Assembly (NCBI GenBank): GCA_934617135.1
Contig: CAKTUC010000003.1
Span: forward strand, 1-51,274
Direction: 5' to 3'
Length of the DNA: 51,274 nt
Source of the DNA: an uncultured Collinsella sp.
GTDB taxonomy: Bacteria; Actinomycetota; Coriobacteriia; Coriobacteriales; Coriobacteriaceae
In this document: positions 2,682-51,274 of the stretch, piece after piece
Layout of the letters: every line of letters starts with the position of its first letter
How positions within the stretch are numbered: the first letter of the stretch is position 1
Notes under the pieces: model-generated
Seen by the model: only the letters and a program-made list of their open reading frames with translations
Databases searched by the model: none
What the model was told of the DNA's origin: nothing
Translations under genes and position numbers: made by a program

Positions 2682-2765
2682 GCGCGCCAAAGGGGCGCCG
2701 CAACGTTCAGCAATCCCATCCTACGGGATAACGCCGCCACGCCCCGTATAAGCACCCAAACAAAG

Positions 2766-2809: not shown

Positions 2810-3244
2810 GGCACATATGAGCGATCGTAGAAGATATCGAAGCACAACGCCCGTCATCGCTCCGCAGCAGTCGATCATCACGTCGGTGATCATGCCGGCG
2901 CGACCGGGCACAAAGAGCTGAATCGTCTCGTCAATCGAGGGAATCAGCAGCAAGAACACCGCCGTGGGAAGCAGCACGTCAAAGGTGCGACGGCCATCGA
3001 CATCGAAAGCGTGCGTCGCCAGAATGCCGAGCACCATGTACTCGGTAAAATGCGCGCATTTTCGAACGACGAAGTTGGTCACCCACTCATACGGAAGCCC
3101 CATGCCGTGCAGAAAGCCGCGAACGGCCTCCATAATCGACAGGCTCAATGAACCGGACCCCGTGCCGGGAACCATCGAATTGCCCCAGATGAGCAGCACC
3201 ATCAGGCAGGTCGCGACCGCCCATTTTCGATCGAGTTTAAGCAT
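2795..3244 (-). CDS. VanZ-like family membrane protein
   Basis: A 149-residue membrane protein with the VanZ-family pattern: an N-terminal membrane segment (WAVATCLMVLLIWGNSMVP), RKCAHFTEYMVLGIL near residues 60-75, and a conserved acidic loop DETIQLFVPGRAGMITDVMID before a last hydrophobic stretch. VanZ proteins are linked to teicoplanin resistance or cell-envelope roles, but most homologues have no known function. The start MLKLDRK (ATG 3242-3244) follows GGAGG 12 bases upstream. It lies 7 bases after the stop of the upstream membrane-protein gene, so the two are cotranscribed. Confidence 0.8.
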   Translation of the reverse strand: MLKLDRKWAVATCLMVLLIWGNSMVPGTGSGSLSLSIMEAVRGFLHGMGLPYEWVTNFVVRKCAHFTEYMVLGILATHAFDVDGRRTFDVLLPTAVFLLLIPSIDETIQLFVPGRAGMITDVMIDCCGAMTGVVLRYLLRSLICAKKAA

Positions 3245-3251
3245 GCAGAAG

Positions 3252-4721
3252 TTATGCCTCCGCACAGAGCGGCTCAAAGCTGGCGGTGCCACCCTCGATA
3301 ACGCTCAGATAGGCACGGCCCGTGCGCCTCACCGCTGCAGACTGCAGGCGGTCGATCTCCTCCTCGAGAATCTGATTGACGCGCTCGTGACGACGGTTCT
3401 CCATGATGCCGGCAGCGATGGCCTCGGCACGCTCGATACCTTCGCGCGAGATGTGGGCGGTATCCTCGGGGAACACGGCGCTGTGGCGACCAACGTACGC
3501 GGGGGCAGCGGGCTGAGGAGCAGGCGTAAACACCGGAGCGGCAACGGGAGTAGGCTCGACGACCTCGTCCAAAATTGCGGCAGCGGCTGCCCACATGCCC
3601 TCGTGGCCCGAATAATCGGCCATGGGGACGTCTTCCTCGGAAGTTGCATGGACAGGCTCGTCGGCAGCGACGGACTGGTACGCGGAGGCCGGGACATCGA
3701 CCGGGGCAGCGACCACATACGGCATGTCGTTCGAGATGACCGGCTCGTCAAGGTCATCGAGATCGACGGCCACGGCAGAAGCATCGCTGATGATCGGCAT
3801 GTTGGCGATATTGGTATTGTACGGTACAGCACCTGCCGCCTGCTGCTGTGCGGGAGCGCCCCACAGCGAGCTTTCGGCAGCACGACGGGCGGCAATAGTC
3901 TCCTCGTCGACGGCCAGCGGCTCGTCGGCGTAGGGGTCAACGGCGGTGGCGGCAGCCGGAGTCACGGGCACGGCAGTGTCATACGTAACGGATTGAGCCG
4001 TGGCGGCGTTGTTGGCGGCGTTAGCCACGAGCGCCACAAAGGCGGCCGTGCTGCCCGCAGGGGCGGCATGAGAGCCCGAGACGGCGCGTGCCGCGGCAGC
4101 GATATCGTCACGGTTGTAAGAGCCGGTCTGGCCGCCGTAGGTGAGTTCGTCGATAGCGACCTGGTACACATCGCGCGAGCGCGCAGGATCGCAGCTGATC
4201 GGCGAGTCATCGTCGAGCATGCTGTCGATCATGGACCAGGCATCGGCCTCGCTCATGGCGTCTGCGGCGCGGGCGATGGTGGGAACGCCATCGTCGGCAC
4301 GACGGCGCTGGAAGGCACCGGTCAGGCCGGAGAAAACCGAAGAGGGCTGCGCGGCGTTTGCCTGAACGGCAGGAGCCGCAGTAGCAACGCCCTGAGGGGC
4401 AGCCCACTGCTGCTGGGCGGGCATCGAGGCGGTCTGGAACTCATTTTGATGCTGGTTGACGTTCGCGGCGCCACCCATGGCGTCGGGCTGGAACAGGCGC
4501 TCGGCATGCTGCGCGCGATATTCAGAAATGCCGAGCGAGGCGGCATAGATACCCACGCCCGCCACCGCACCCACGGCAAAGGGAACAGCGCCCGCGACGA
4601 CCGTCTCGTTCACCGACGAAAACGGCAGCGTGGCAGCATACATCACCACGGGAGCGGCAAGGCCGATTCCGCAGGAAAGTCCAGCAAGGACTGCTCGTTG
4701 TGTTGCATCAGAAGAAGCCAT
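3252..4721 (-). CDS. Uncharacterised Ala-rich membrane-anchored protein
   Basis: A 489-residue protein I do not recognise. After a short N-terminus there are two hydrophobic segments (roughly residues 8-30 and 35-60), then about 350 residues of Ala/Pro/Asp/Gln-rich low-complexity sequence. The C-terminus is a more ordered, charged region of about 75 residues (RHERVNQILEEEIDRLQ) that could form a helix. The ATG at 4721 is chosen because GGGGAG lies 6 bases before it. It heads a two-gene unit with the VanZ-like gene. The architecture suggests a membrane-anchored protein with a long disordered linker, possibly envelope-related. No enzymatic motif is visible. Confidence 0.65.
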   Translation of the reverse strand: MASSDATQRAVLAGLSCGIGLAAPVVMYAATLPFSSVNETVVAGAVPFAVGAVAGVGIYAASLGISEYRAQHAERLFQPDAMGGAANVNQHQNEFQTASMPAQQQWAAPQGVATAAPAVQANAAQPSSVFSGLTGAFQRRRADDGVPTIARAADAMSEADAWSMIDSMLDDDSPISCDPARSRDVYQVAIDELTYGGQTGSYNRDDIAAAARAVSGSHAAPAGSTAAFVALVANAANNAATAQSVTYDTAVPVTPAAATAVDPYADEPLAVDEETIAARRAAESSLWGAPAQQQAAGAVPYNTNIANMPIISDASAVAVDLDDLDEPVISNDMPYVVAAPVDVPASAYQSVAADEPVHATSEEDVPMADYSGHEGMWAAAAAILDEVVEPTPVAAPVFTPAPQPAAPAYVGRHSAVFPEDTAHISREGIERAEAIAAGIMENRRHERVNQILEEEIDRLQSAAVRRTGRAYLSVIEGGTASFEPLCAEA

Positions 4722-36592: not shown

Positions 36593-38932
36593 CTACAGAT
36601 CCAACGCCTTTTTCGCAGCATCGACCGGGTCGCCATCCATGTAGAACACCGGGCTCAACCCCGAGATAATCTCGGACGAAACGCTCTGCAGGCCCGCGAT
36701 GGCGCTCAGCGGCAATATCACGCGCTTGGCACCGGCGTTTTTGGCCACGCGCATAATGTCCTCGAGCCCGCGAATCTCGTCCATAGAACCCGACATGCGC
36801 AAGATTCCCGGAACCGCCAGCGCGGGCATCACCGGGCGGTTGCACGCCGCGGAACACAAGCCCACAAACTCGGCGAGCGAAACCTCCTCGGACAGGCCCT
36901 TGCTCTGCAGGTCGTTGTAGAACAGCAGGTAATCCTTGGAGCCAATGTGCATGCCCGGCGCCACGCGGTTCGCCAGGTTCACAAAGTTGTCGAACGCGGC
37001 CTCCAGCGTATCGCGCACCGGCTTGTTAAAGGCAACACCCTCGTGCTTAAACTTGCACTCGCCGGCAACAGCCTTGTTCTCGAGCTTGTACACGGCAACC
37101 TCGCCGCCCTGCGACCTGCCCACGCCAAACACGTGACCGGACAGCAGCGGCCCGTCGGGGATCAGCGTGTCCTCGGACTGCTCGGGCACGCGCACCACAT
37201 GCACGTCCTGCGGGTTGTCGGCATCCATATAGCCCAGGTTGACATCGATAAACTCGACGCCCGCCATAATCTTGAGCTGCTCCTTTACGCGGCGACGGCC
37301 CTCGATGGCGTAGTCCAGCAGCCAGCGCACGTCGTCCTTGTCCATGGCCTCGTCGGGGAACAGCAGCTTGGCCAGGCCGCTAAAGGTCTTGCGCACGGCA
37401 ATCTCGTCGCGCTTGTTAAAGTCGCTGTTAAAGCGGAAATAGCGGTCGATGTGATGCGTAAAGTCCTTGCGGCGCATCTCCTTGCAAAACTCCGACAGGC
37501 AGTCGGTGATCAGGCCGTAATGCCCGGTCAGCAGGCTCGAGCGCATCTTGGGAATCTCCCAGCCCGGCAGGTAATAGTGGATACGGTCGAAGAAAGCCGA
37601 ATCGTTGTTAAACTCCGGCGGGAACGGATCGAACAGGTGCGTGGTCTTAAGGACGTTTTGCACGGTGTCGTTGATGTTGCCCTCAAAGACCATGGAGGCG
37701 TCGGCGTTAATCTGGTCGCGACCGCGCGCATAGCTGCCGCTCGCCATGTAATCCTTCATGATCTGCACGGCGTTGGTGTCCTTAAAGCGCATGCCGGCGA
37801 CCTCGTCGAACGTCACGCAATCCCAGTGGCCCACCAGGCCCACGCGGTCGGCGCGCATGGAGTTCATGCGGCCGAACAGGTTGGCCGTCGTGGTCTGGCC
37901 GCCCGAAAGCAAAATGGCGTAGGGCGAGACCTCTTTGTAGATGTGGCTCTTACCGGTACCGCGGGGACCTAGCTCGCACAGGTTGTAGTTGCGCTCGATA
38001 AGCGGCACCATACGCTCGATAAAGTGCATGCGCTCCTTCTCCGAAAGCTCGCTGGGCTCATAGCCGGCCGAGCGCAGCAGCATGTTGAGCCACTCGTCGC
38101 GCGAGAAATACTGGCGTTCTTCGACCATAGCATCCAGGTCCAAGTTGGGCATCTGGATGGGCGTGAGCGAAGCCACGCTAAACGGAGAGTCCTCGGGCCC
38201 GCGCTTCTTACGCTTGGCCTTGGAGCGGCGCGGCGCATCGTCGCCAAAGACCTCCATGCCAAACTCGTCTTCCTCATCCAAGGGATGACGATACTCGATG
38301 CTCATGATGCACCAAATGCCGCCCTGCAGAATCTTGGAATAATCGCGCACGTACTCGGCCGGCATCACAAACGGCTCGATGGTCAGGTTGGCAAACGACG
38401 CCACATAAATGTCTTTGTACTCGTCGAGCTTGGCCGTCACCTTGTCAATGATGGTAAAGCGGCCCAGCTCACGGATCTTGGACTTGATGCGCTCGGACTC
38501 GTCGGGGCGCACGTAGTTATCGGTGAGGATCCTGCGAATGCGCTCCAGACCCTCCGCCACAGCTTCCTCGTCGTCGGTTGAGCAGTACATGCCCAGCAGG
38601 TACTCCAGCACAAAGGTGGGCACGTTGGCGCCGCGCTTCATAAGGGCCGTCAGGTCCTTGCGCACGATCTTGCCGCCAAAGTGCTCGAGCAGCTTGCCGT
38701 CCAGCCCGTCCATGTCGTAGCCCTCATCCTCGGGTTCCTCGGCAACAGCCTGGGCATAGCCATCGGTCGAGGATTCGCCCTCGGCGGGCTCGGCAGTCGC
38801 TGCATCCTCAACGGGAGCAGCAGCCGCCGGCTCCGGGGCAGGCGCGACGGCCTCAGCCGCCGCATCCTCCGCCGGCGCGCTCACATCAATCGAGGGAACT
38901 TCCCACAGGTCGTCGTCATGGCTATCAAACAT
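36593..38932 (-). CDS. brxL: BREX protein BrxL (Lon-like, MCM-like AAA+)
   Basis: A 779-residue BrxL, a hexameric AAA+ ATPase with a Lon-like C-terminal domain that is needed for phage exclusion in type 1 BREX. After an unusual 65-residue Ala/Glu/Pro-rich N-terminus it shows VLEYLLGMYCSTDDEEAVAEGL, the Walker A GPRGTGKSHIYKEVSPY near residue 322, VTFDEVAGMRFKD (Walker B) and LFDPFPPEF. The C-terminal Lon-like part (DYLLFYNDLQSKGLSEE to AVPGILRMSGSMDEIRGLEDI) covers residues 640-775. The start ATG at 38932 follows AGGAG by 8 bases. It starts 11 bases after the pglZ stop, so the two are translationally close. Confidence 0.93.
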   Translation of the reverse strand: MFDSHDDDLWEVPSIDVSAPAEDAAAEAVAPAPEPAAAAPVEDAATAEPAEGESSTDGYAQAVAEEPEDEGYDMDGLDGKLLEHFGGKIVRKDLTALMKRGANVPTFVLEYLLGMYCSTDDEEAVAEGLERIRRILTDNYVRPDESERIKSKIRELGRFTIIDKVTAKLDEYKDIYVASFANLTIEPFVMPAEYVRDYSKILQGGIWCIMSIEYRHPLDEEDEFGMEVFGDDAPRRSKAKRKKRGPEDSPFSVASLTPIQMPNLDLDAMVEERQYFSRDEWLNMLLRSAGYEPSELSEKERMHFIERMVPLIERNYNLCELGPRGTGKSHIYKEVSPYAILLSGGQTTTANLFGRMNSMRADRVGLVGHWDCVTFDEVAGMRFKDTNAVQIMKDYMASGSYARGRDQINADASMVFEGNINDTVQNVLKTTHLFDPFPPEFNNDSAFFDRIHYYLPGWEIPKMRSSLLTGHYGLITDCLSEFCKEMRRKDFTHHIDRYFRFNSDFNKRDEIAVRKTFSGLAKLLFPDEAMDKDDVRWLLDYAIEGRRRVKEQLKIMAGVEFIDVNLGYMDADNPQDVHVVRVPEQSEDTLIPDGPLLSGHVFGVGRSQGGEVAVYKLENKAVAGECKFKHEGVAFNKPVRDTLEAAFDNFVNLANRVAPGMHIGSKDYLLFYNDLQSKGLSEEVSLAEFVGLCSAACNRPVMPALAVPGILRMSGSMDEIRGLEDIMRVAKNAGAKRVILPLSAIAGLQSVSSEIISGLSPVFYMDGDPVDAAKKALDL

Positions 38933-38943
38933 AGGACACACTC

Positions 38944-41625
38944 CTAAAAACCAAAGTCAGCAACGGGGGCAAACGAAACGGCGATGGTGTACGTCTCGCG
39001 CCAAACGATCTTGCCCGACTGGGCGTCGCGGCAAACCAGCAAATGCGACGAACCGGACCCAAACGACGCGCCCGTCTTGAGCGTAAAGCGCGCCTCGGTC
39101 ACACGGTCCTGCGGGTTGGGCGAGGTCATGTCCGCATGCACGCGGGCAACGTCGCTCACCTCGTTGCCGGTCTCGTCGGTAAACACCAGCTCGTACTCGC
39201 ACGGCAGCACCTTGCCCGTAGCGGCCTCCTCCTGCAGCAACTTAATGCCAAACAGCGAGTTGGTAACGCGACGGCTCTCGCTGAGCACGCGCAGCTTAGC
39301 GGTTTGCGTGTCGACAAATTCCTTTGAGGACGCGCTCAGGCGGCGATACCCGACCACCGGCACCACGAGTTCCTGCAGGCTTACGCCTCCATGCACGTAG
39401 CGCTTGGTGCCGCCGGGCCGCCTGTAGTGCACAATCCCGCGCGGGGCCAAGCCAACGTAGCCGCCGCCCGGCACCACATGGTCCATGTTCATGGCCAAAT
39501 ACGGGCTGCCGTCCGCGCCGTTGGTGATATCGGCCAAGGCATCGCCCAGGGCGACCACCGCATGGCGCTTCCCAAACAGTACCGGGTCGTCGGGAAGGTC
39601 GTTCTTGCCCAGGAACAGGCATTCCGGCAGCTCGTTGGCCGTATACAAAAAGCCGTGATCGGACGTAATCGTCACACGGGCGCCCGGCGCGTCGGTGCAC
39701 ACGCGCTTGGCAATCGAGACCAGCTCATCCACGCTCTCGGCGCATGCATCAAACACGTCGCTTTCGGTGGCGAGCTTCTCCCCCGTCGCGTCGATCTTAT
39801 TGTGATACAGGTACACGATCTCGCTGGACTTGAGCAGCTCCTTGCGCTCGGCCGCAGACATATCCAGATACGCCGCGGCACTCAGGGCGCGACCCGTAGG
39901 CGCGGCCGCCTGCAGCACCGCCTGACGCTCGACCGTAGAGCCCGTGGGCATGCCATCGAGCAGCACAGCGCCCGTTTCCACGTTGAGCGTCATGACCTGA
40001 TGCGGCAACAGCGCCGGCATGCCCATCTCGGTAATGGAGGGGAACATCGCCTGTACGCTGCCCATGCGCACCTCGCCGCCGCGTTCGCGCTCCAGGGCGG
40101 CCGCCACGTCCTGCGCCACCTCGTAGCGCAGCGCATCGCTGATCAGGACCACCTTGGCCTTGGCGCTTCCGACATACGTGGGCAGCGTCTCCCAATAGAA
40201 CAGGTCCTGGCGGGCGACGCCCTCAACGTAACCGGCATCGCGCCACTGCGCCTGGGCGGCGTTGGCCCAGCACGCGTTGCTCTCGGTCAAATACCAGTTA
40301 ACGTAGTTGTTCTCGGCCCATTCAACCGCGCGACGCTCGGGCTCCTCCAGCGTGTCGACGCCACGCAGCTTGCAGTGCTCGTTGGCCTGACGCAGCGCGC
40401 GATAGGCGGCATCCATGCGCCACCAATCCGTGGTGTAGGCCTCCCACACCTCGGTGGCCTGGGCAATATGGAACCCGCCCGAATGGTCGCGCTTAAAGGC
40501 AGCCATATCGGCCAGCGCCAAAAGCACCTGGTAATAGCAGGCGACATCGTCGTACCAGCACAGGTCGCGACGGGTCGAGGCAACACGACGCGCCTCGTCA
40601 ACGCGATCGGCGCCTTGCGCCAGCGAGGCGAGCAGGTCGCTCAGAATGGCCTCGTCAACGCACGGGAACACATCCAAGCGCAGTAGGTCGTCGGTAGACA
40701 GCCCGCTAAACACATGGCGAAGGCCGCACGCGTCCTGGACCAGCTCGCAAATCTCGCGCAGGTCGTCGGCAGCAGCGGCATCGCCCGCCCACTCGCGGAC
40801 GACGGCGATGCAATACGGCGCATAGGCAGGCGCAATATGGTTGGAGAGCTTTTGCAGCGCGGTCGTCGGCACCAGCGATGCCGAGGCTGTCAGCAGCACG
40901 TGGGCGGCAAAATCCTGCAGCGAATCGCGCTCGAACAGCGCCCCCTCAAAACCCGTGCGCTGACGCACAAAAGCGGCAAGGCTATCGGCAGCCTCGAACT
41001 TTTGCGCCAGCTCCGCCAGTACCTCCGGGCCATCGTGCAGCAGCATAGTCAGGCACGCACGCACGATAAACGGCATGGTGGCGGCACTGGGATCGGAGCC
41101 GCCAAACATGGCAGCCAGCAGGCCCAGCTCAACATCGGCCGCACACGCAGGTGCGGGCATGCACTTGGAAAACTTGGCAACGCGACCCTTGGCGGCAAAG
41201 AACGACTTATGCGCCTGCAGCGCCTTGCGAATATCCCGCGCGTTCGAGGCCCCCAGCTGGTCGGCCAGCAGCGACAGATAATCAGCCGAGAACTGATCGG
41301 CATACAGCTCAACATCGGCCAGCCAATCGCCCTCGAGGCTTCCACGCCCCTGCTGGCGATACACCAGCAGGTCGCTCGTGATGTCCTCGCGTGCGATCAG
41401 GCGCTTGGCCTCAAACATGTGCCCGTCGCAGGCTTCAACAAAGCGTACCGGGCGCGGCAGGCGCTGCTCTATCGCATCGCCAAAGCCGCACTCGGCAAGC
41501 TCGGCAAACGTAGCGGCAAACTCGCCCTCCGCGTCGTGCCACACAACCACGCGGCGCTCACGGCAATCGGACAACGGCTGTTCAAAGCGCGCCGCCAGCT
41601 CTTCAATTACATCGAACTTTGCCAT
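38944..41625 (-). CDS. pglZ: BREX-1 phosphatase-like protein PglZ, type A
   Basis: An 893-residue PglZ, the alkaline-phosphatase-superfamily core protein of BREX. The N-terminal region (DCRERRVVVWHDAEGEF) and LVYRQQGRGSLEGDWLADVELYAD match type 1 PglZ. The phosphatase-like domain shows VVLISDALRYE near residue 495, MFPSITEMGMPALLP and TITSDHGFLYT near residue 655, with the metal-binding Asp/His in SDHG. The C-terminus is a beta-rich domain. No strong ribosome-binding site. It lies 60 bases after the split pglX C-terminal gene and directly before brxL, the normal pglX-pglZ-brxL order. Confidence 0.93.
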   Translation of the reverse strand: MAKFDVIEELAARFEQPLSDCRERRVVVWHDAEGEFAATFAELAECGFGDAIEQRLPRPVRFVEACDGHMFEAKRLIAREDITSDLLVYRQQGRGSLEGDWLADVELYADQFSADYLSLLADQLGASNARDIRKALQAHKSFFAAKGRVAKFSKCMPAPACAADVELGLLAAMFGGSDPSAATMPFIVRACLTMLLHDGPEVLAELAQKFEAADSLAAFVRQRTGFEGALFERDSLQDFAAHVLLTASASLVPTTALQKLSNHIAPAYAPYCIAVVREWAGDAAAADDLREICELVQDACGLRHVFSGLSTDDLLRLDVFPCVDEAILSDLLASLAQGADRVDEARRVASTRRDLCWYDDVACYYQVLLALADMAAFKRDHSGGFHIAQATEVWEAYTTDWWRMDAAYRALRQANEHCKLRGVDTLEEPERRAVEWAENNYVNWYLTESNACWANAAQAQWRDAGYVEGVARQDLFYWETLPTYVGSAKAKVVLISDALRYEVAQDVAAALERERGGEVRMGSVQAMFPSITEMGMPALLPHQVMTLNVETGAVLLDGMPTGSTVERQAVLQAAAPTGRALSAAAYLDMSAAERKELLKSSEIVYLYHNKIDATGEKLATESDVFDACAESVDELVSIAKRVCTDAPGARVTITSDHGFLYTANELPECLFLGKNDLPDDPVLFGKRHAVVALGDALADITNGADGSPYLAMNMDHVVPGGGYVGLAPRGIVHYRRPGGTKRYVHGGVSLQELVVPVVGYRRLSASSKEFVDTQTAKLRVLSESRRVTNSLFGIKLLQEEAATGKVLPCEYELVFTDETGNEVSDVARVHADMTSPNPQDRVTEARFTLKTGASFGSGSSHLLVCRDAQSGKIVWRETYTIAVSFAPVADFGF

Positions 41626-41685: not shown

Positions 41686-42654
41686 TTATTTTATCTTTGC
41701 CAGCACATCCTGGAACTTGGCATAGTTGACCTTTACGCCGTCGTCCAGGTCGATCTTGATCATCTGGTCGGCCAGGTGATGTAGTTTTTCCTCGTAGGCG
41801 ACGGTCTCGGTCAGCTGGTCCTTAAGCTTTTTGATGCGCTTGGTCAGCGCGACCTTCTCGCCGCGCTCGGCCGTGGCCAGTGCGTCCTCGGCGTCGGCGA
41901 TCTGCGAGCGATAGCGCTCCTGTTGCTCGTGCACGTAGTCGGTACGAATACGCGCCAGCAGGTCGGGCGTGTAGCGGTGCATGTACACCAGGACCATAAA
42001 GCCGTTCTTTTTGCCCGAATCAAACAGCCAGTAGATGGGGCGCTTCTTGTACGTTTGGCAGTGGTCCTTAAAGAAGTCCTTCAAAAAGTAGGTACGGATG
42101 ACCTCGCGCGAGGTGCCCTTGCCGCCGAGCGCCTCGGCAATAAAGGCCAAGTTCTGTTCGAGCGTCTCCTCGCCGTACACGGTACGCACAAAGTCAATAA
42201 AATAGCGCACGATGTCGTCGTCGAAGTACTCGTCGTCGGTAATGGGCAGCACGTTGTCGCCATCGGGCATAAAGGTCACGTGATCGGGGTCGGGCATCTT
42301 GGCCAGATAGTCGGCGACCGTGGCACCCTGGTCGGCCAGGACCAGCCCGTCCACATCCAACGAGTAGCGGCCAAACATGCAGCCCACGGCATAGCTAATG
42401 AGCGAGGTGATCTCGTCGCGCTTGGTGCGCACGTACTTGTTGCCCTTATAGCTCTCGGGGATCTCGTCGGCGGTATCGAAGATGCGCGCCACCGACACGT
42501 ACTTGTCCTCGACCTCGATGGGCACCTCGCCCTCCATGTTGTAGATCTTGGCAAAGATTCGGTTGAGTTCCTCCTCGTTCGCGCGAAGCTGCTCAAAGCG
42601 AGCATTGACCTCGGCTTTGCGAGCCTCGTATTTATCGGCGAGCAACGTTGCCAT
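41686..42654 (-). CDS. pglX: PglX C-terminal domain encoded as a separate gene
   Basis: A 322-residue protein equal to only the last quarter of BREX-1 adenine methyltransferase PglX. It starts with EARKAEVNARFEQLRANEEELNRIF, runs through ISYAVGCMFGRYSLDVDGL and ITDDEYFDDDIV, and contains KKRPIYWLFDSGKKNGFMVLVYMHRY, the PglX C-terminal hallmark, then a coiled-coil tail. It has no methyltransferase motif. An in-frame TAA lies just upstream, so it cannot be read through from the main gene 7.6 kb away; its own ATG has only a weak GGGA. Whether it works in trans with the truncated PglX or is a remnant cannot be decided from sequence, but the frame is fully intact. Confidence 0.85.
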   Translation of the reverse strand: MATLLADKYEARKAEVNARFEQLRANEEELNRIFAKIYNMEGEVPIEVEDKYVSVARIFDTADEIPESYKGNKYVRTKRDEITSLISYAVGCMFGRYSLDVDGLVLADQGATVADYLAKMPDPDHVTFMPDGDNVLPITDDEYFDDDIVRYFIDFVRTVYGEETLEQNLAFIAEALGGKGTSREVIRTYFLKDFFKDHCQTYKKRPIYWLFDSGKKNGFMVLVYMHRYTPDLLARIRTDYVHEQQERYRSQIADAEDALATAERGEKVALTKRIKKLKDQLTETVAYEEKLHHLADQMIKIDLDDGVKVNYAKFQDVLAKIK

Positions 42655-42895: not shown

Positions 42896-42979
42896 CAGCA
42901 CCAAATCAAACAGCGCGAAGCGATACGGCCCGCCGTCTCATGGCAAGAGCGCATCGCATTTCCTAAAACCGCAGGCAGA

Positions 42980-43008
42980 TTGACGAACATGTGTTTGGTC
43001 ATTATAAT
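42980..43008 (+). promoter_or_regulatory. Near-consensus promoter of the RNA/DUF3800 module
   Basis: TTGACG (42980-42985), a 17-base spacer and a perfect TATAAT (43003-43008). It is the best promoter seen in the window. It predicts a start near 43015 on the strand opposite the BREX genes. Confidence 0.8.
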
Positions 43009-43014
43009 TTCTAC

Positions 43015-43106
43015 TTGAATAGACTCCTCGTCTCGTGGTACAAATAGGTTGGTACCCTCGAATAGAGGGACCTCCAAGAGCCGGGGGATGTCCCCCGGCA
43101 TTTTTT
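43015..43106 (+). ncRNA. DUF3800-associated structured RNA, copy 1
   Basis: Transcript predicted from the promoter just upstream. The conserved lead TGGTACAAATAGGTTG is followed by hairpin 1 (GGT-A-CCCTC, loop GAATA, GAGGG-ACC; 43051-43072), a linker CTCCAAGA, and hairpin 2 (GCCGGGGG with CCCCCGGC, 43080-43099) with a T run, which is an intrinsic terminator. Bases 43069-43077 (GACCTCCAA) are perfectly complementary to the DUF3800 ribosome-binding site at 43116-43124. Structured RNAs upstream of DUF3800 genes were reported in comparative surveys (DUF3800-I to -XI motifs); which motif this is, if any, I cannot tell. Confidence 0.75.
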
Positions 43107-43129
43107 ATGCGTGAATTGGAGGTCACCTC

Positions 43130-43807
43130 ATGAAGGAACTCTCGATCTTTATCGATGAATCCGGCGACGCGGGGCCTGTATCTAGGTACTACATAGTCAC
43201 GCTCGTCTTCCATGAGCAGGACGAACCTGTTGACCCTCATATCAATAGCTATGAGCAGCTCTTGAAAGATCAAAGTCTAGACATCATGCCATTTCACTTC
43301 GGACCTCTTTTGACCGGGCATGACGACTATAAATGGCAGGATATCCAACGGCGAAAAAAGCAACTTTCCGCCTTCACGATGCTTGTCCAGCACCTTCCCA
43401 TCACCTACCGACCCTTCATCTACGACAAGAAGCAAGGCCTTTACGAGCCGCAGAAGCTCTCCGAAAAGATTGAACGCGATGTTACGCTATTCCTCGCCGA
43501 CCACCTGGCGTACATACAGAGCTTTGACCACGTCAAGATCTACTACGACGGAGGTCAAAGCGTTGTAACGCGAGCGCTTCATGGTGCCATTGAGAAGGCA
43601 ATTTCCCAAAGGGCCACGGTTTATCGCGACGCTTCGCCTAGAACGTACCGCCTCTCCCAGGTCGCCGACTATATTTGCGGAATCGAACTCACGCTCCTTA
43701 AGTTCCAGAATGGAACAGCGACCAAAACAGACACGGAGTTCTTTGGCTCGATCACCCCATTCAAAAAGAACTTCGTTAAGAAGCTAAAGAAAAAGAGTCT
43801 CGATTGA
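43130..43807 (+). CDS. DUF3800 protein, putative RNase H-fold nuclease
   Basis: A 225-residue DUF3800 protein. The family signature FIDESGDAG is at residues 7-15, with later YYDGGQSVVTRALHGAIEKA (about 140-160) and RLSQVADYICGIE (about 182-194). These three acidic blocks are compatible with an RNase H-like metal-dependent nuclease, as suggested for the family; no activity is established. GGAGGT lies 6 bases before the ATG. The gene runs against the surrounding minus-strand BREX genes, has its own promoter, follows an RNA with a terminator and is followed by two more copies of that RNA. The target, and whether the RNA is regulator, antitoxin or guide, are unknown. Confidence 0.88.
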   Translation: MKELSIFIDESGDAGPVSRYYIVTLVFHEQDEPVDPHINSYEQLLKDQSLDIMPFHFGPLLTGHDDYKWQDIQRRKKQLSAFTMLVQHLPITYRPFIYDKKQGLYEPQKLSEKIERDVTLFLADHLAYIQSFDHVKIYYDGGQSVVTRALHGAIEKAISQRATVYRDASPRTYRLSQVADYICGIELTLLKFQNGTATKTDTEFFGSITPFKKNFVKKLKKKSLD

Positions 43808-43829
43808 GTCAACCATTCGCGCTGGAGCC

Positions 43830-43897
43830 ATGGTATAAATGGGTTGCGTTCCTTTATGGAAGGCAGTCAAGGGCCGGGGGATCCCCCCGGCATTTTT
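43830..43897 (+). ncRNA. DUF3800-associated structured RNA, copy 2 (diverged)
   Basis: Starts 22 bases after the DUF3800 stop. The lead TGGTATAAATGGGTTG differs from copy 1 by two transitions. Hairpin 1 has a different sequence but the same shape (TTCC, loop TTTAT, GGAA, extended by GC/GC). Hairpin 2 is GCCGGGGG-ATC-CCCCCGGC with a T run. The anti-ribosome-binding-site linker is not kept here. No separate promoter is visible. Confidence 0.7.
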
Positions 43898-43958
43898 GTT
43901 TTTACGTCAACCGTAAGTCGCGTGAAACGCCTCAAGTAGACCCGACGTGTGGCTTCTG

Positions 43959-44025
43959 CTATAAAGATATTGGTACCCTCGAATAGAGGGACCTCCAAGA
44001 GCCGGGGGCTTCCCCGGCATTTTTT
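43959..44025 (+). ncRNA. DUF3800-associated structured RNA, copy 3
   Basis: 39 bases (43970-44008) are identical to 43049-43087 of copy 1, including hairpin 1 and the CTCCAAGA linker. The terminator hairpin is one pair shorter (GCCGGGG-GCT-TCCCCGGC) and the downstream ATTTTTTATGCGTG is also identical. It is followed by GGAGG like copy 1, but then by the helicase gene end rather than by a DUF3800 start. Confidence 0.75.
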
Positions 44026-44047: not shown

Positions 44048-47000
44048 CTACTTAGCTTCCTTCGGGGCGTTTTCGATTGCGTCGGCAATCACCTCTATGC
44101 CTTCTCCCTGGCCCAGAATGAAGCACTTCCAGTCGATGTCTTGGGTATGCGCAAACTCATCAGCACGCGAAGCGCTAAAGAGCATCACGCGGCTCTTCTT
44201 CCACAGCAGAGCGGGGTGCAGCTTAAACTCGGTGCTCTCAATACAGACCATCGCGTCTTTGCGAGGCATCTCCAGCTTGCTGCTTTTGACCAGCTCTTTT
44301 AGCTTTTGAATATCGGCAATCTCCTGACCAACGGAACAGCTGTTGAGCAGGTCTTTCCATACGCGAAAGTACGGCTTTCCCTCATAGGAGGCCCCTTCGG
44401 CAACGACAGATGTCGACAGGCCGGTGGGCCGCTTGGCCACCGCATGCCTAACCTTGGGCGTCGCCCTGGCAGAATCCTCCGCCGGTTTCTCGTCGATGCC
44501 AAGAACCTGGGCAACGTAGTCGTCGTTACCCAAGAAGTACTCCTCCACCACGTCCCATCGCTCGGAGTCGCTCATCGTGGAGCGGAAGAAGCCCTTAATG
44601 ACCTTGGACGAATACTCATGACGGTCGTTAAGCTCGCGCAGCACGCCATTGGAATACTTGCTGTCCGAGGCGAGCGCCTTGACCTTCGAAGCATCGTTAA
44701 GACGGATGAAAATCTCCGGATTGTCGCCGCCCTTTACCGTATACGTGGCAAGCTTAAGAATCTCCAAGATCTCGGCCAGCGCGTAGCGAGCATCAAGAGC
44801 CTTGTTATCCAGATATCGCCTGCAATGCTTGCTTCCAGCGGGCGGCTGCAGCCTTCCCAGCGTCTGAGCTAAATTGCTCATGGACGTCTGAAGCTCGCGC
44901 CCAATAACGCCATAGCGAACATCCTGCACGCGGCTATAGGTGTTCTTCGAAGACCTATTGAATCGCTTGATGCACTTAAAGGAACGGTCGGATCCAAAAT
45001 GCGCGCTACCATCGACCGGGCGGACAAACGCATTCAGCAACGCAGACGGCTTCTTAACCTCCAAGGACGTTCCCTCAAGCTGGCGGCCCAGCTCTTTCGT
45101 AAACTCCTTCTCCGAAAAATCGCCCTCGCGCGCCAAGGCCATAAACGTCTTGTGCAGCGCCTCGGCAAATACAGACAGCGTCGACGTGGCCTTATCAAAG
45201 GGCATGGAGTAATTGATGTCGAGCGCAAGACGGTTCGAGAGCGCAGGCTCCCCCGTCGGCGAACAAATCTCGCCCTTAATCAGGCGGCGTTTAAAATCGG
45301 CAAAGGTCAGATCGCTAAACTCATTGGCCCACATGTCGCCAACATTAAGCTCATAGATGGCACCCATGTCCGAAATCTTGACGGCATGCTGCCCCGCGCG
45401 ATTCTCGTAGCGTGTATGGGCCTCGCTGATTTTTCGCAGGTACTTGCCGTAGGACGTGGTAAAGCTGCGCTCGGCCGCCTGCTCAATGCAAACAAATTGC
45501 TTGGTGTACGACACCTTGGGACGCACGACAATAACCGGGAAGTTGAACTTATCCTCAAGGTCGCGCGATATCATCATAAGGGCCGACTTAACGCGGTTGG
45601 TCTTGCGGTCCTCGTCCTTCTCGTTCGTAAACAGGTACGAGAACGTATTGGGCGACACCAAGAAGTTTTGGCTGCGGTCCTTTTGCGGCGCAGAGGCATA
45701 AACCTCGTACAGCTTGGCCATGATCTCCTTAAGCTGCCACTGGCTAAACTTAGACAGCGCATACAGCGTCTCGGAATAGCGAACGTCCTGCATAAAGAAG
45801 TCGATGCAGGCCTTGGCCCCCAAGCCACGCTTACGGCCGCCACGTCCAATTTCCTGAATATAGTCGGACAGATTGCCCGTCGGCGCATAGTGGTACACGG
45901 CATCGATATCGTCGATGTCGATGCCCATGCCAAACGCCTTGGTGCTCACGAGCACCCTGCAGCTACCCGACGCAAACGCATCTTGAACGATCTTCTTGTA
46001 CGCAGCGTCCTTTCCGCCGTGATATCCCAAGACTTTGGAATTAGAGACGTTGCGCGAATCAATAATCGCATTAACGTGGCTCTGATACGGGCAGTAAACG
46101 ATGGCATGCCGGTTGTCGCGCACCGCCTTGTCAATCCACTGCTCGGCAAGGTCGGTTTTAACCTCCTCAATAGGCCCGGGCAGCTCGCTCTTGCTTCTCC
46201 AGACAATATCGAAGGAAATATCGTTGCGACGGGGATTGCCCAGGAACGTCTTGCAGTTGCCAAGCTCCAGGTCGGCAACCGTATGCGAGACCACGTCATC
46301 GCATCCACCGTAAACGGCAGTAGCGGTGAGGCAGAAGATGGGGAAGCTCATGCCGTTTTTACGGAGCTTGGACAGGTAAGGGCCCAGATACCAGTAGTCC
46401 GGGCGGAAATCTTTACCCCAAGAGGTTACGGTATGGACCTCGTCAATAACGACAAGGCCAAGCTCGCGACCGTTAAGAATTGCCTGAATCGAAGACTCCA
46501 ACAAGAGCTCCGGCGACAGGTAGATGATAGAGGCCTCGCCGCTCTTAACGCGGTCAAGCGACTCGAGCCGCTCGCCATAGGGAATGTCCGAGTTAATGGC
46601 AACGACATTCTTAACGCCGCGCTTTCGCAAATTGGCAACCTGGTCGATCATCAGGGCCTTAAGCGGCTCGATGACCAACGTAACGAGCTGGTATTTCCGA
46701 GCAAGATACAGCGCCGGAATCTGGAACAGAATGGACTTGCCCGCACCCGTGGGCGCCGTTACAAACACATTCCTGTAATCGACGGAGCCCGCATGGGCAG
46801 CCTCGGCCTGCTTTACGACAAACTCGGAGATAGCACCCTGAGACACCGTTTCCATCTCGTTGTCAAAGTCGGGGTTCTTGTAAAAACGAAGCTTCCTAAA
46901 CGAGGCGTCCTTGCCCCAGTAATGCTGAAGCACCGAAAGCAGACGGCCCGACTCCTCGACCTTCTCCTCCTGCTCTTGCTGCGCTACAAAGGAAACGGAC

Positions 47001-47740
47001 AGGCCAAGAGCGCGAGAAACGGATGCAACCGTCTCCAGAACAGCTCGATAGCTTTCTCGCTCGCGAGCGTTTACTAAAACAGAAACGGGGCCAACCGCAC
47101 CATCCAGCAAGCTCAAGCGATATTCCAAAAACGCCGTCGACGAAACAGGGACAACGCCCTCAGAAGCCGTCGAAGCATCGCCAAACGTTAAAGAAGCGCG
47201 GTCAAACAGATCGATAACTTCCCACTCAGAGAACTCGTCCGGAATGATCGGCGTAACGAGGTGCGCGGCTCCAACCTTTACCGACTTGGCATAGTACTTA
47301 GACAGCCCCGTCGCATCGGGCGCCATATCGTCAAACGACGTCTCAAAGCTATCGAGCAACTCGGGATCGACGAGAGAAGGAACGCCCTCGCCATCTAGGA
47401 ACAGGTTATTCCGCACCACGACAATCTTGCCGTCAAATAACTCGCCGATGGTACCACGCAGATCAAGAAGCTGCTCAAACAGCATCAAGACCGGGCCATC
47501 TGCCGATAGTATCTGAGCCACGGCCAGCTTCTTTTGGCGAACGAAGCCAGTCGGAGAAAAGAACGGAGCAGCATCGCTCGCAACAACGCCGGGAATCGAG
47601 CACTCATTACGTGCAAGAGGTTCGGCAAGACGAGACGGCAACCCGCAGAAAGCAAAAATCGTCGGCTGAGAACAATCCCTTAGGAGCTCATCGATTTTAT
47701 GGTTAAGCGTCAATCCGCTGCCATCGCAATACTCGGCCAT
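44048..47740 (-). CDS. Large RecQ-like DEAD/DEAH helicase inserted in the BREX cluster
   Basis: A 1230-residue superfamily 2 helicase. The first 300 residues match nothing I know. The helicase core has the Walker A TAPTGAGKSILFQIPAL near residue 330, a DEVH box (VVIDEVHTVTSWGKDFRPDYWYL) near 430, LTATA, the motif-V STKAFGMGIDIDDIDAVYHY near 600 and motif VI YIQEIGRGGRKRG near 630. The order and GMGID/QEIGRGGR motifs are RecQ-like, but the RecQ zinc-binding cysteines are absent. About 550 C-terminal residues are unassigned. GGAGGAGGG precedes the ATG. Large helicases accompany several defence systems, including BREX variants. The 315-base gap to the AAA_13 gene carries repeat copy B. Confidence 0.9.
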   Translation of the reverse strand: MAEYCDGSGLTLNHKIDELLRDCSQPTIFAFCGLPSRLAEPLARNECSIPGVVASDAAPFFSPTGFVRQKKLAVAQILSADGPVLMLFEQLLDLRGTIGELFDGKIVVVRNNLFLDGEGVPSLVDPELLDSFETSFDDMAPDATGLSKYYAKSVKVGAAHLVTPIIPDEFSEWEVIDLFDRASLTFGDASTASEGVVPVSSTAFLEYRLSLLDGAVGPVSVLVNARERESYRAVLETVASVSRALGLSVSFVAQQEQEEKVEESGRLLSVLQHYWGKDASFRKLRFYKNPDFDNEMETVSQGAISEFVVKQAEAAHAGSVDYRNVFVTAPTGAGKSILFQIPALYLARKYQLVTLVIEPLKALMIDQVANLRKRGVKNVVAINSDIPYGERLESLDRVKSGEASIIYLSPELLLESSIQAILNGRELGLVVIDEVHTVTSWGKDFRPDYWYLGPYLSKLRKNGMSFPIFCLTATAVYGGCDDVVSHTVADLELGNCKTFLGNPRRNDISFDIVWRSKSELPGPIEEVKTDLAEQWIDKAVRDNRHAIVYCPYQSHVNAIIDSRNVSNSKVLGYHGGKDAAYKKIVQDAFASGSCRVLVSTKAFGMGIDIDDIDAVYHYAPTGNLSDYIQEIGRGGRKRGLGAKACIDFFMQDVRYSETLYALSKFSQWQLKEIMAKLYEVYASAPQKDRSQNFLVSPNTFSYLFTNEKDEDRKTNRVKSALMMISRDLEDKFNFPVIVVRPKVSYTKQFVCIEQAAERSFTTSYGKYLRKISEAHTRYENRAGQHAVKISDMGAIYELNVGDMWANEFSDLTFADFKRRLIKGEICSPTGEPALSNRLALDINYSMPFDKATSTLSVFAEALHKTFMALAREGDFSEKEFTKELGRQLEGTSLEVKKPSALLNAFVRPVDGSAHFGSDRSFKCIKRFNRSSKNTYSRVQDVRYGVIGRELQTSMSNLAQTLGRLQPPAGSKHCRRYLDNKALDARYALAEILEILKLATYTVKGGDNPEIFIRLNDASKVKALASDSKYSNGVLRELNDRHEYSSKVIKGFFRSTMSDSERWDVVEEYFLGNDDYVAQVLGIDEKPAEDSARATPKVRHAVAKRPTGLSTSVVAEGASYEGKPYFRVWKDLLNSCSVGQEIADIQKLKELVKSSKLEMPRKDAMVCIESTEFKLHPALLWKKSRVMLFSASRADEFAHTQDIDWKCFILGQGEGIEVIADAIENAPKEAK

Positions 47741-48055: not shown

Positions 48056-50266
48056 TCACCTCTCGCCGTCAGTGAGAGAGCGGGTCGTAACGGACTCAAA
48101 CTCGATACCACAGCGCTCAGCCATGTAATCAAAATGAGCAGCTTGGTTATTTGCTTCAAAAATGCACCGCATAACATTTAGATAGTGAAGTAAATAGTCA
48201 CCTGAATCGGTGCATTCGGCATCATCGGTCAAAAGATGAGAACCAGAGTGCGTCCACAAAAGCAATGATCTCCCCAAAGGACGATCGGATGGAGACAGTT
48301 TGGCGATTGTTTCCTCAAGATTCAATCCGTTGACAAAATTGAAATATGTTTCAAGGATTCGACGAATGCTATTGCGAACGGACGTTGACCGATTTCCCGC
48401 ACGAAGCTCTTGCCATAGAGCCTCGTAACCCGTACTTACCGGGTTATCCGAACCAAAAGCCTCGACAATGGAGCTACTAGCCGTTTTTCTAATTACGAAA
48501 TACGCGCTGTTCGATAGGGAGTAACCCGCCGAAGGGTATGTAATTTCGTGATGGAAACTGGCATTGTGCGTTAATACAAACAGCTGGCTGACATCGGAAT
48601 TGTCCTTCCGCCGCGCTTTGGAAGCCAAGTCTCGCACTAAAGAACTAACAAAGTAGAGAACGTTCGCATCCAGGCTGGAAATAGGGTCATCAATAAATAC
48701 AACTGGATGATCGGACGACTTGCTCTCGACGTAACTTAGAAAATACAAGAAGGTAACGATGGTTTTTTCGCCTTCGCTAAGGGTTTCATTCGCACGTTCG
48801 CCACTTCGACGAATAAATGCATAGTCTTTTCCATCGTTAGCTTCATCGAGAGAAAAATTATCAAAGCACAAGTCCCTAAGAATTCGATTGATACGCTCAA
48901 TAGTAGGCTTAGAACTGGTGAGCCGAGACATCAACTCCTCCCGCTCGGCATTCTTTTTTTCAATCGCATTAGAGCAGCTGAGAAGCTTAGATTCGAGCCC
49001 CTTTTTGGCGCCGTTGTAAGCGCGCTCAGCTTTTAAAAATTGCTTCTTTTCTGCATCCAACTTAGTTACGCATTGCCAGCGAATGCGGGAATTAGTCTCT
49101 TCTTTAAACTCATTAAAATGAAGAGCGCGTTCGTTGTGTACGGCAATTTGTTCATTTAGCCTTTCAAGCGAAATGGCCAAGTTCTCACGAGCATCAATCG
49201 TATCTTCAATAATTACTGAGCTGCCCAAATCATTTTGCTTGGCTTTCATACGTTCAAGATTCGTCGAAGCCAAGGCATCAAAGTCAATCAAATCATTGCT
49301 CACTTGAATAATGTCGAATCCCTGATTTCGATAAATGGATAGACCTTCCCTCAGCTGACGTATTTCACTGAGAAAAGTTTCATAAGTAGAGACAGCATCA
49401 GTCAATAGTCTCTGAGCGTCTCGGTAATCATCATCAAAGAAGTTTTCGATACTCTTAGCAAGGGCTTCACTCGTTTGTTGCTGGCAAAAAGGACACGTTG
49501 CCCGATTTTTTAGCCGAAAGTACTGCAAGCCCCTTTCAACCCAGCCAGCATTATTAAGCTCATGGATTAGTTTTGCCGTATTGACATCGCCGCTCCCTAC
49601 AACAGGACGTGAAAAAGCCTCATAAGATTCAGCTTGTTCAAACAATTCAAAATCTGGAATAGCAATCGGTGGAAGCTGCTGTAAGGGTGCTCCCGACGCT
49701 TGTTGGGCAAGAGCTTCCAAATCATCATTACCAATTAGCTTAAAGTCGCTTGGCGCGTCTAACGTCAAAACTCGCTGAAAAAATGATTCTTTTTTAGAAA
49801 GGCATCCACGAAAAGCAGCCTTCTGAGCCTCGGAAAGGGAATTGCGCACGCCCCAACACTTCTGCTTGAACAACTCCTCGGCATCGCTATATTTAGACTC
49901 CTCCCCCTTTAAGACCTCCCCATAACCTTCTAACTGTTTTTCAAGATTAGTGATTTCTTCCCCCAAAGCACTAACGCTCTGTTTAATTTCAATATTGTCC
50001 TCGCCCAAAGTAAAAACGCCCGGGACGCTACTGTTTTGAAATATGCCGTTAATGTAATGCTGGTTGTACACCAGAACCGGACGTGATGAGCCCGACCACT
50101 CTACGCGAGCCTCGTCGTCCACCACTCTAGTTCGCAAATATTCGCTAATAGTAGTTTTTCCGCTGCCATTGGAACCGAAAATATAATTAACCGATTTCAG
50201 GCTATCCAACGACGCGTTATCAATGCCATATGGACCCAAACCGGAAACGGTAATGCGAGATATCAT
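48056..50266 (-). CDS. AAA_13 ATPase, PrrC/RloC anticodon-nuclease-like
   Basis: A 736-residue ABC-type ATPase. It has the Walker A FGSNGSGKTTISEYL near residue 30, a long central coiled coil interrupted by a CPFC zinc-hook motif near residue 256, the signature LSEGEKTIVTFLYF and the Walker B VVFIDDPISSLD near residue 520, then an H-loop LTHNASFHHEI. This is the AAA_13 architecture, which includes PrrC and RloC, tRNA anticodon nucleases. The C-terminal part has R-R-I-L-E near residue 632 and a histidine 34 or 38 residues later, near the spacing of the nuclease triad (Arg, Glu, His) described for PrrC. The match is suggestive, not proof. The ATG at 50266 is one base-step beyond the pglX stop; the sequence is visibly more AT-rich than its neighbours. 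Confidence 0.85.
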   Translation of the reverse strand: MISRITVSGLGPYGIDNASLDSLKSVNYIFGSNGSGKTTISEYLRTRVVDDEARVEWSGSSRPVLVYNQHYINGIFQNSSVPGVFTLGEDNIEIKQSVSALGEEITNLEKQLEGYGEVLKGEESKYSDAEELFKQKCWGVRNSLSEAQKAAFRGCLSKKESFFQRVLTLDAPSDFKLIGNDDLEALAQQASGAPLQQLPPIAIPDFELFEQAESYEAFSRPVVGSGDVNTAKLIHELNNAGWVERGLQYFRLKNRATCPFCQQQTSEALAKSIENFFDDDYRDAQRLLTDAVSTYETFLSEIRQLREGLSIYRNQGFDIIQVSNDLIDFDALASTNLERMKAKQNDLGSSVIIEDTIDARENLAISLERLNEQIAVHNERALHFNEFKEETNSRIRWQCVTKLDAEKKQFLKAERAYNGAKKGLESKLLSCSNAIEKKNAEREELMSRLTSSKPTIERINRILRDLCFDNFSLDEANDGKDYAFIRRSGERANETLSEGEKTIVTFLYFLSYVESKSSDHPVVFIDDPISSLDANVLYFVSSLVRDLASKARRKDNSDVSQLFVLTHNASFHHEITYPSAGYSLSNSAYFVIRKTASSSIVEAFGSDNPVSTGYEALWQELRAGNRSTSVRNSIRRILETYFNFVNGLNLEETIAKLSPSDRPLGRSLLLWTHSGSHLLTDDAECTDSGDYLLHYLNVMRCIFEANNQAAHFDYMAERCGIEFESVTTRSLTDGER

Positions 50267-50275
50267 TCCAACCAC

Positions 50276-51274
50276 CTACAACAAAGGATGACGACCGAAG
50301 CTGTGCGAAATTTCAGAAGAGTTGTAGTCATCCAAAGATTCAGAAATGCAATCCGACGCGAGACGATCGACCTCATCACGAACGTCATCCAGGTCCACGA
50401 GAGGCATGGAGCAAACACCGCCGACTTCGAAGTTTAACGTAGGGCATAAGAAGGAAAGAAAGCTCTGGGCGACACTAGAATTGCAGAATGCGAGCAGGGG
50501 GAGGCCGGTGTTTTCCTCGTTAGGAAATAGGCACAATCCAGCAACGTCGAACAAGTGACCTTCGTCTTTATGCCTGAAAGCTGCGTGGCCGGAAGAGATT
50601 TTAGACCAGGTGATTTCAGGCAAAAACATATACTTTTGACTTCGCGGAACAAGATGCCCGTAATCTCTAGCACGTTTTCCGTCATCTTTCCAGTCAATTA
50701 CCCATTCTTCGTTTCCATACCATTTTCTAAAGTCACCTCCCTTGTTATAGGGAAACCAAGTCGCTCCCGACCGCTTGGCGTCTGAAGCCGACGAAGAGCA
50801 ATAATCGGTTGAGCTATTTCCGACCTCAAACCAAAGCCTTAAAAATCTATCGTTTTCACCCGTCGTCATGCCGTTGCAGCCCCAGGCATGCTCTCTGATC
50901 TTCTCGTTCGACGAAAAAGCCTTATAGGTCATCTCGCTAGCCCAGTAGGCGATGGGGGTGCCGGGGATCTGCTTGAAGGTCTCGGCGTCGCGGCGGTAGA
51001 ACCAGCCGCAGTCGGGGTTGCCGATCGCCTCGAGAGCCTTCGGCGCCTGGACGGCAGCGCCAACAAAGTCCGAAAGACGAACGTAGCCGCCCTTGTAGCC
51101 CTTGATGAATGAGTTGTGGAACGTGTAGGTGCAGATAGGCACAGTCGCCCCAGCAAAGCCCGAATACTCGAGCTGAATGAGGGAGGTCAACGTTCTGTTG
51201 TCGATGATCTCGTTGCGAAGCTTCTCGTAGCTTCCGATAAACATCCAGACGAAGGGTGACATGACACCGCACTC
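50276..51274 (-). CDS. pglX: BREX-1 adenine methyltransferase PglX, partial at the window edge and lacking its C-terminal domain
   Basis: The reading frame is open to the right edge (51274), so the N-terminus and the methyltransferase NPPY motif are outside the window. The visible 332 residues are the region after the catalytic domain: VMSPFVWMFIGSYEKLRNEII, GATVPICTYTFHN, IPGTPIAYWAS, GMTTGENDRFLRLWFEV and NKGGDFRKWYGNEEWVIDW, i.e. the target-recognition part of PglX. It ends at SFGRHPLL, where PglX proteins normally continue into ANEEELNRIF. That continuation is found instead as a separate gene at 41686-42654. The stop is followed within 10 bases by the next gene start. Confidence 0.9.
   Translation of the reverse strand, partial: ECGVMSPFVWMFIGSYEKLRNEIIDNRTLTSLIQLEYSGFAGATVPICTYTFHNSFIKGYKGGYVRLSDFVGAAVQAPKALEAIGNPDCGWFYRRDAETFKQIPGTPIAYWASEMTYKAFSSNEKIREHAWGCNGMTTGENDRFLRLWFEVGNSSTDYCSSSASDAKRSGATWFPYNKGGDFRKWYGNEEWVIDWKDDGKRARDYGHLVPRSQKYMFLPEITWSKISSGHAAFRHKDEGHLFDVAGLCLFPNEENTGLPLLAFCNSSVAQSFLSFLCPTLNFEVGGVCSMPLVDLDDVRDEVDRLASDCISESLDDYNSSEISHSFGRHPLL

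Follow-up and report, generated by a model that had tools for sequence, protein, structure and literature searches.

An RNA that often outlasts its DUF3800 gene in Coriobacteriia, a candidate antidote to a predicted RNase H-fold nuclease

What is a DUF3800 gene doing inside a BREX region together with three copies of a small hairpin RNA, two of them downstream of the gene? The question is raised by a 51,274-nucleotide stretch of DNA from an uncultured Collinsella sp. (contig CAKTUC010000003.1; hereafter the window), in which an initial annotation had noticed the gene and three RNA copies with a common order of parts. These are present as described, the gene being recognized by PF12686: on the plus strand the module reads outer promoter P1, inner promoter P2, RNA copy 1, DUF3800, copy 2 and copy 3, followed by a helicase-like gene on the minus strand. 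Each copy is a unit of about 55 nt that combines an extended -10 element, a covarying hairpin, a linker of the UCCAAG type and a conserved terminator hairpin. Copy 1 (43051..43106), the cognate RNA and of type A, consists of the hairpin GGT-A-CCCTC/GAGGG-ACC, the linker UCCAAGA and the terminator GCCGGGGG/CCCCCGGC. It is followed by the gene for the 225 aa DUF3800 protein (43130..43807), by copy 2 (43846..43897), which is of type B, and by copy 3 (43972..44025, aligned to locus L177), again of type A and with no gene behind it. The sequence bears out that copies 1 and 3 are identical over 39 bases.

The promoter credited with driving the module, TTGACG-17-TATAAT, does exist at 42980..43008 (P1), but its TATAAT at 43003 probably does not set the main start, and each copy has a -10 of its own. 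For copy 1 this belongs to P2 (43015..43044), which reads TTGAAT-18-TACAAA with TGG before the -10 (an extended -10). The extended -10 elements TGGTATAAA of copy 2 (43831..43839) and TGCTATAAA of copy 3 (43957..43965), both read in the sequence and covered by the covariance model matches given below, stand at about the spacing seen in copy 1. Judging from promoter spacing, the main start is probably near 43051, at the first G of hairpin 1 and 7 nt after TACAAA. A TAnnn -10 is present in 69 of the 84 upstream units that were parsed (window included), accompanied by TGn in 63 of the 69 and by a TTG 16-18 nt upstream in 36 (background 6.5%).

The protein itself matches PF12686 with 31.2 bits (E 4.1e-7), above the curated cut-off of 21 bits, and a Pfam scan at E 0.001 finds DUF3800 only, without a ToxN/AbiQ toxin domain. 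While a sequence-profile search of solved structures with DUF3800 returned nothing useful, an AlphaFold2 model with a mean pLDDT of 92.8 has RNase HII as its best Foldseek match (E 1.2e-4), its fold lying near RNase HII and PIWI. Together with the invariant residues D9, E10, D140, D180 and E186, the model has the RNase H fold and acidic active site expected of the RNase H superfamily, and the window DUF3800 is thus a predicted RNase H-fold nuclease.

Is the RNA anything more than a terminator? The 130 bases upstream of 93 DUF3800 genes were compared, and the unit was seen in most of them. A first MAFFT alignment of 61 distinct units (A1) misplaced hairpin 1, RNAalifold found the terminator alone, and the model built from it (R1) was not used. 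Anchoring on the conserved -10 mended the placement of hairpin 1 and gave alignment A2, which comprises the 36 of the 61 units with a common linker length and a clear -10; 8 and then 17 units, mostly with an 8-nt linker, an unusual length or no clear -10, were left aside. These 36 units, all from other genomes and without any window sequence, yielded the covariance model R2, which recovers copy 1 (68.5 bits, E 4.1e-14, 43036-43104), copy 3 (62.9 bits, E 8.7e-13, 43957-44023) and copy 2 (55.1 bits, E 6.5e-11, 43831-43896). Across the 51 kb, R2 found no full-length match beyond the three copies, the remaining hits being the terminators of copy 1 (20.9 bits) and copy 2 (17.7 bits) read in reverse, together with a terminator-only match of 10.2 bits.

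Given the structure, bases pair in 93.4% of 604 cells of A2, and two-sided changes occur in 12 of 17 pairs, among them every one of the 9 in hairpin 1. Such changes were counted in 83 cells, where shuffled alignments gave 31.8 +/- 4.2 (0 of 500 reached the observed value). When the partner is displaced by 1-3 bases, pairing falls to 62.1% or less, a control that leans towards the chosen structure because this was picked knowing the folds of these sequences. Pairing exceeds chance, and the RNA is real and selected, as the initial annotation had proposed. Its opposite, that the copies are plain terminators found throughout the genome, is ruled out by the R2 scans of the window and of a phylum-wide sample. 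The suggestion that the RNA could be a guide looks unlikely, since the only variable unpaired stretch in A2 is the short loop of the hairpin (by eye). Two further candidates were set aside: a UUGG/CCAA pairing or pseudoknot with the linker is unsupported by eye, since CGG/CCA combinations occur, and a match of Rfam anti-hemB to copy 2 (43809-43900; 22.8 bits, cut-off 49.5), which has the same plan of a hairpin plus a terminator, was taken as a chance likeness.

Starting from three loci, relatives of the DUF3800 gene were collected from 120 of 396 sampled genomes of the class Coriobacteriia (loci L010-L097 come from this sample). An R2 match (E <= 0.01, within 250 bases upstream) lies before 84 of the 93 DUF3800 genes, 36 of which trained the model; the RNA is associated with DUF3800 genes. 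Among the genes lacking such a match, L068 and L078 offer just 122 and 88 upstream bases, L070 and L076 have weak matches in the correct place (E 0.29 and 0.031), L096 and L097 carry the Rfam RNA DUF3800-XI, below and above its cut-off respectively, and L095 has neither RNA. L047 and L048 have a strong DUF3800 behind one 245-base upstream sequence that is common to two genomes, lacks the RNA and resembles the end of an insertion element (by eye). Overall, R2 matches occur in 125 of the 396 class genomes, with both RNA and DUF3800 in 94, RNA only in 31, DUF3800 only in 26 and neither in 245 (Fisher odds ratio 28.6, p 2e-39, related genomes not being independent). Eleven of the 26 DUF3800-only genomes carry DUF3800-XI, 9 of them above cut-off. 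When restricted to genomes with a strong DUF3800 (E < 1e-50), an R2 match is present in 82 of 86, the exceptions being G182 and G238 (the L047/L048 sequence), G193 (L070) and G329 (L076). The phylum-wide sample contained R2 in 14 of 396 genomes, all of them already in the class sample, the share of that sample lying outside the class being unstated. Collections of phages, plasmids and viruses gave one weak phage match, one Collinsella record and no viral match.

DUF3800-associated RNA motifs reportedly stem from a comparative survey of 2017. The Rfam models of these motifs were run on the window and all fell below cut-off: the best, RF02975 (DUF3800-XI), reaches 12.5 bits at 43067-43095 against a gathering score of 37.8, and has no match at copies 2 or 3. 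No other Rfam DUF3800 RNA family reached its gathering score in the window or in a scan of 20 related loci, and a further 20 loci yielded two tRNAs and one DUF3800-XI (L097, 41.3 bits); within the class, 31 of 396 genomes have DUF3800-XI above cut-off. Both RNAs have a small hairpin, a short linker and a G+C-rich terminator-like hairpin directly upstream of DUF3800 in the same bacterial class, but they differ in their linkers and in their partner proteins. In a protein tree of 99 sequences, a branch with 100/100 support separates all 13 DUF3800-XI-associated proteins from all 79 R2-associated ones, the 7 proteins with weak, other or no RNA having been labelled "other" before the tree was built. 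The window protein lies outside the DUF3800-XI clade. One of the proteins labelled "other", the second gene of L093 (R2 32.3 bits, DUF3800-XI 22.5 bits), is an exception on the DUF3800-XI side. By sequence comparison, the window RNA family is a new sister of DUF3800-XI. The initial impression that flanking repeated copies inside a BREX operon look new needs amending: the RNA lies below every Rfam cut-off, but the family is not wholly new, because a sister in the same class is already in Rfam.

Likeness between RNAs also follows likeness between proteins (Mantel rho 0.41, 0 of 999 permutations), and RNA type is matched to protein lineage. This bears on a rival account of the layout, in which the hairpin and terminator form a cis attenuator that merely sets the DUF3800 mRNA level on some signal and has no role beyond its own gene. 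A terminator does stand between promoter and gene at nearly every locus, as in a classical leader; however, neither a conserved linker nor a match to the protein lineage is needed for attenuation, and copies without a gene retain their promoter and pairing. We therefore regard an attenuator as decidedly unlikely.

The relation between RNA type and protein can be followed in close relatives of the window. The nearest relative found, L185 (genome G233), has a PglX part 98.8% and a PglZ 95.5% identical to those of the window. At the corresponding place it has a single RNA, without DUF3800, copy 2 or copy 3, and the class-sample search found no DUF3800 match in G233. Compared with copy 1, 0 of 55 RNA sites differ in L185, against 36 of 324 sites plus gaps in the intergenic flank (Fisher p 0.005); in the promoter stretch 42979-43044, L185 departs from the window at 2 of 66 sites, and L177, whose BrxL part is 98.5% identical to that of the window, has this stretch almost unaltered. 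Behind this near-constant promoter, L177 has an RNA of type B, a DUF3800 of the same type (identity 65% with that of L088 and 41% with that of the window) and then, downstream, an RNA resembling copy 3 with its -10. The comparison of the window with L177 therefore indicates that a change of RNA goes with a change of protein while the promoter stays constant. L178 (2259-3109) likewise combines a type-B RNA with a DUF3800 in two pieces, downstream of which lies one more RNA unit.

These comparisons also change the interpretation of copy 2. Its hairpin, TTCC/GGAA in place of CCCTC/GAGGG, had been cited as a change that keeps pairing. Pairing is indeed kept, but the change is a difference between lineages and not drift in place: the 35-nt core of copy 2 is present, with at most one mismatch, in 3 of the 396 class genomes, always upstream of a DUF3800 of the L088 lineage, which in G164 is split into two pieces. 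The likeness between the window and L177 stops just past the copy 2 terminator, where a type-B gene would start (by eye). We read copy 2 as the putative footprint of a lost type-B DUF3800 of the L088/L177 lineage that is absent from the window. The RNAs nearest to copies 1 and 3 are those of L010, L025 and L011, and the proteins nearest to the window DUF3800 in the tree are those of L010 and L011. The copies represent relics, or spare units, of modules that have undergone turnover.

How often does the RNA occur without the protein? Among the 150 R2 matches listed, 91 precede a listed DUF3800 on the same strand by no more than 150 bases, another 10 are placed differently but within 2 kb of such a gene, and 49 have none nearby. 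Forty of these 49 were examined by searching with the 93 DUF3800 proteins. A DUF3800 piece was found beside 16 of the 40 (in L140 and L157 the contig ends inside it) and none beside 24, of which 22 are informative, because the sequence of L139 and L147 stops some 60-100 bases beyond the RNA. Eight of the 24 share with a DUF3800-bearing locus a nearby reading frame that does not overlap the RNA (at least 70% identity over 100 residues); L158 and L161 also share a neighbouring frame with such a locus, but there the frame touches the RNA. Neighbours of the gene-less RNAs include polA, glutamine synthetase, S-adenosylmethionine synthetase, ychF and DUF4143 ATPases. No neighbour is common to many of them, DUF4143 ATPase genes occurring in 4 of 24 (20 neighbouring proteins scanned). 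Near ychF, the RNA stands alone in L156 and L163, and the whole module is present in L028 (at a slightly different spot) and L033. In L028 the 3' end of ychF appears, by eye, to be repeated beyond the DUF3800 module (~960-1025 and after 2169), as if the module had been recombined in. The same inequality is seen for DUF3800-XI, where the gene is complete in 13 of 30 loci, reduced to a piece in 9 (L196 near a contig end) and not found with these queries in 8.

That the RNA often outlasts DUF3800 points to an antidote to a nuclease. Unequal loss would be expected of a toxin and its antidote because losing the antidote first would be harmful. On the other hand, gene-less RNAs may be recent leftovers, the genomes may be incomplete, and distant DUF3800 homologues may have been missed. 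It is quite possible, if short of probable, that the gene-less copies, copies 2 and 3 included, are inert leftovers whatever the cognate RNA does. Several of the extra copies score low with R2 (22.8-43.5 bits), and the terminators of L156 and L163 are beginning to mismatch (by eye), as inert remnants would. Against this, L185 keeps its RNA without a single difference, and L177 keeps the unit resembling copy 3 with its -10. In the 24 DUF3800-less stretches, pairing in the 27 RNAs is close to that of the cognate set (92.4% against 93.4%, with two-sided changes in 12 pairs), although this is no fair comparison of decay rates because the best-scoring matches were chosen, the alignment was fitted to R2 and two of the units overlap in L155.

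The BREX setting recurs but is not required. In the window, BrxL (36593-38941) and PglZ (38944-41625) lie on the minus strand, as does the C-terminal part of PglX that adjoins the module (41686..42654; PADLOC PglX, E 3.2e-121), while the middle part of PglX lies on the far side of the intervening genes (50276..51262, minus strand; PADLOC PglX, E 1.5e-98). Between the two separated PglX parts are a large DEAD/helicase protein (44048-47740; PADLOC C3a193, DpdF-like) and an AAA_13 ATPase (48056-50275; PADLOC PDC-S06). Within the stretches examined, a pglX piece occurs at 10 of 91 other DUF3800 loci. Extra RNA units (E <= 0.05) are present at 8 of 11 pglX-side loci (window included), against 4 of 81 others (Fisher p 8e-7, manual count), these four being L025, L034, L038 and L058, with L038 on the contig of the pglX-side locus L010. 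Given this excess and the 10 of 91 loci, the BREX site is best seen as a place of seeming module turnover, not a requirement.

The recurrence beside pglX might instead reflect a partnership in which DUF3800 and the RNA together form an active defence nuclease, the RNA being an activator or scaffold and the complex possibly aiding BREX. A predicted RNase H fold close to those of RNase HII and PIWI would suit such a role, as would the presence of DUF3800 among the accessories of some Cas12 and Cas13 loci (PMC10910872, PMC12669027). The window protein belongs to the same domain family as the DUF3800 of Cas12a2 and type VI-F loci and is likewise predicted to have an RNase H fold, but those proteins, some of them TPR-fused, are described as CRISPR accessories, whereas the window DUF3800 stands alone with its RNA. 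A Legionella Tn-seq study, in the part accessible, lists a DUF3800 gene, a different homologue, among accessory genes scored essential (PMC7811196); this is easier to reconcile with a useful protein than with a toxin and counts against the toxin reading, since a toxin gene should not score essential. However, a scaffold RNA would not be expected to survive without its protein, no variable stretch able to serve as a guide is apparent by eye, and most of the 91 loci have no BREX gene in the stretch examined. We consider such a partnership unlikely, while giving it some weight.

Gene-less units beside unrelated genes could also be remnant ends of a mobile element, with the hairpin unit as a recombination or insertion site and DUF3800 as the recombinase. 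Copies 1 and 3 as direct repeats around the gene, and the repeated ychF end adjoining the module in L028, speak for this account. Yet the cognate unit lies 5' of the gene, usually one per gene, carries a promoter and terminator fit for transcription, and varies by compensatory change, unlike a fixed end, making this account highly improbable.

We lean, with modest confidence, towards a toxin-antitoxin module that is type III-like, has a toxin of RNase H fold and leaves RNA footprints of lost toxins. An antitoxin was one of the roles first listed for the RNA, and association, covariation and unequal loss all support it. A short promoter would make an RNA of about 55 nt ending at the strong terminator, and DUF3800 mRNA would arise from occasional read-through past it; with mRNA made only in this way, the RNA would be in excess over the protein. 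The RNA would bind and silence its own DUF3800, the predicted nuclease being freed once the RNA becomes scarce, as might happen if a phage halts host transcription. After decay of the toxin gene, the RNA and its promoter would tend to persist, perhaps as protection against related toxins nearby or arriving later. Copies 2 and 3 in the BREX locus would then be RNAs without a gene of their own, copy 2 being the footprint of a type-B toxin. A tentative extension, about which we are somewhat doubtful, holds that RNAs with a single hairpin unit work in trans and persist as immunity RNAs once the toxin is gone, so that the BREX locus records past toxins, copy 2 guarding against type-B and copies 1 and 3 against type-A DUF3800.

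The order of promoter, RNA, terminator and gene, the covariation, the match of RNA type to protein lineage and the unequal loss come from computation, and binding, toxicity, release and protection are inferred. In the accessible text of PMC12373285, the AbiF motif RNA was shown to silence the toxic AbiF by binding, in cis and in trans, and in AbiF/RCd22 of C. difficile, as in the window module, the protein gene is immediately preceded by an RNA that has a promoter and a terminator of its own. That system differs in that AbiF belongs to the Abi_2 family, RCd22 carries two motifs per RNA, and its functions were tested experimentally. PMC12373285 and PMC5086642 state that the terminator of type III toxin-antitoxin systems keeps the RNA in excess. 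ToxIN, CptIN and TenpIN, as far as the text of PMC5086642 available to us goes, share with the window the order of RNA gene, terminator and protein gene, and an RNA type that follows protein type; here, too, the RNA lies directly upstream with a rho-independent terminator before the protein gene. They differ in their tandem repeats, pseudoknots and ToxN-type toxin, as opposed to a single hairpin unit and a protein whose predicted fold is RNase HII-like, with no ToxN/AbiQ domain.

The repeat structure argues against a toxin-antitoxin system, as type III antitoxins are repeat arrays, often with pseudoknots, and the window and most of the 93 genes have one unit (L001 and L023 have two before the gene). 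The strong DUF3800 of L047/L048 without the RNA, L095 with neither RNA type and the off-clade second gene of L093 also argue against it. An RNA antidote nevertheless remains the best supported, if unproven, reading, and it is the unequal loss of protein and RNA, in both the R2 family and DUF3800-XI, that points to it. If true, an RNase H-fold toxin would join the RNA-controlled modules, and this would suggest a route by which CRISPR loci may have acquired their DUF3800 accessories. A literature search that missed most subscription journals found no publication describing DUF3800 as an RNA-controlled toxin, and the portions of text searched held no statement on the role of DUF3800-associated RNAs.

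Several loci show unusual arrangements of the RNA unit. In L155 (1964-2070), two units overlap on opposite strands with an apparently common terminator region, and in L137 the units at 592-660 and 754-822 point apart with about 90 bases between them and no DUF3800 piece in the stretch examined. L131 has a gene-less unit flanked by a Schlafen AlbA_2 protein on one side and a reverse transcriptase on the other (254-1711 and 2527-3957). In L133 (1051-3691), DUF3800 is in separate pieces with three nearby units at 69.5-72.8 bits. Finally, the two units upstream of DUF3800 in L001 (4661-4898) and L023 (1158-1397) are in tandem, with a G+C-rich, hairpin-like stretch between them.
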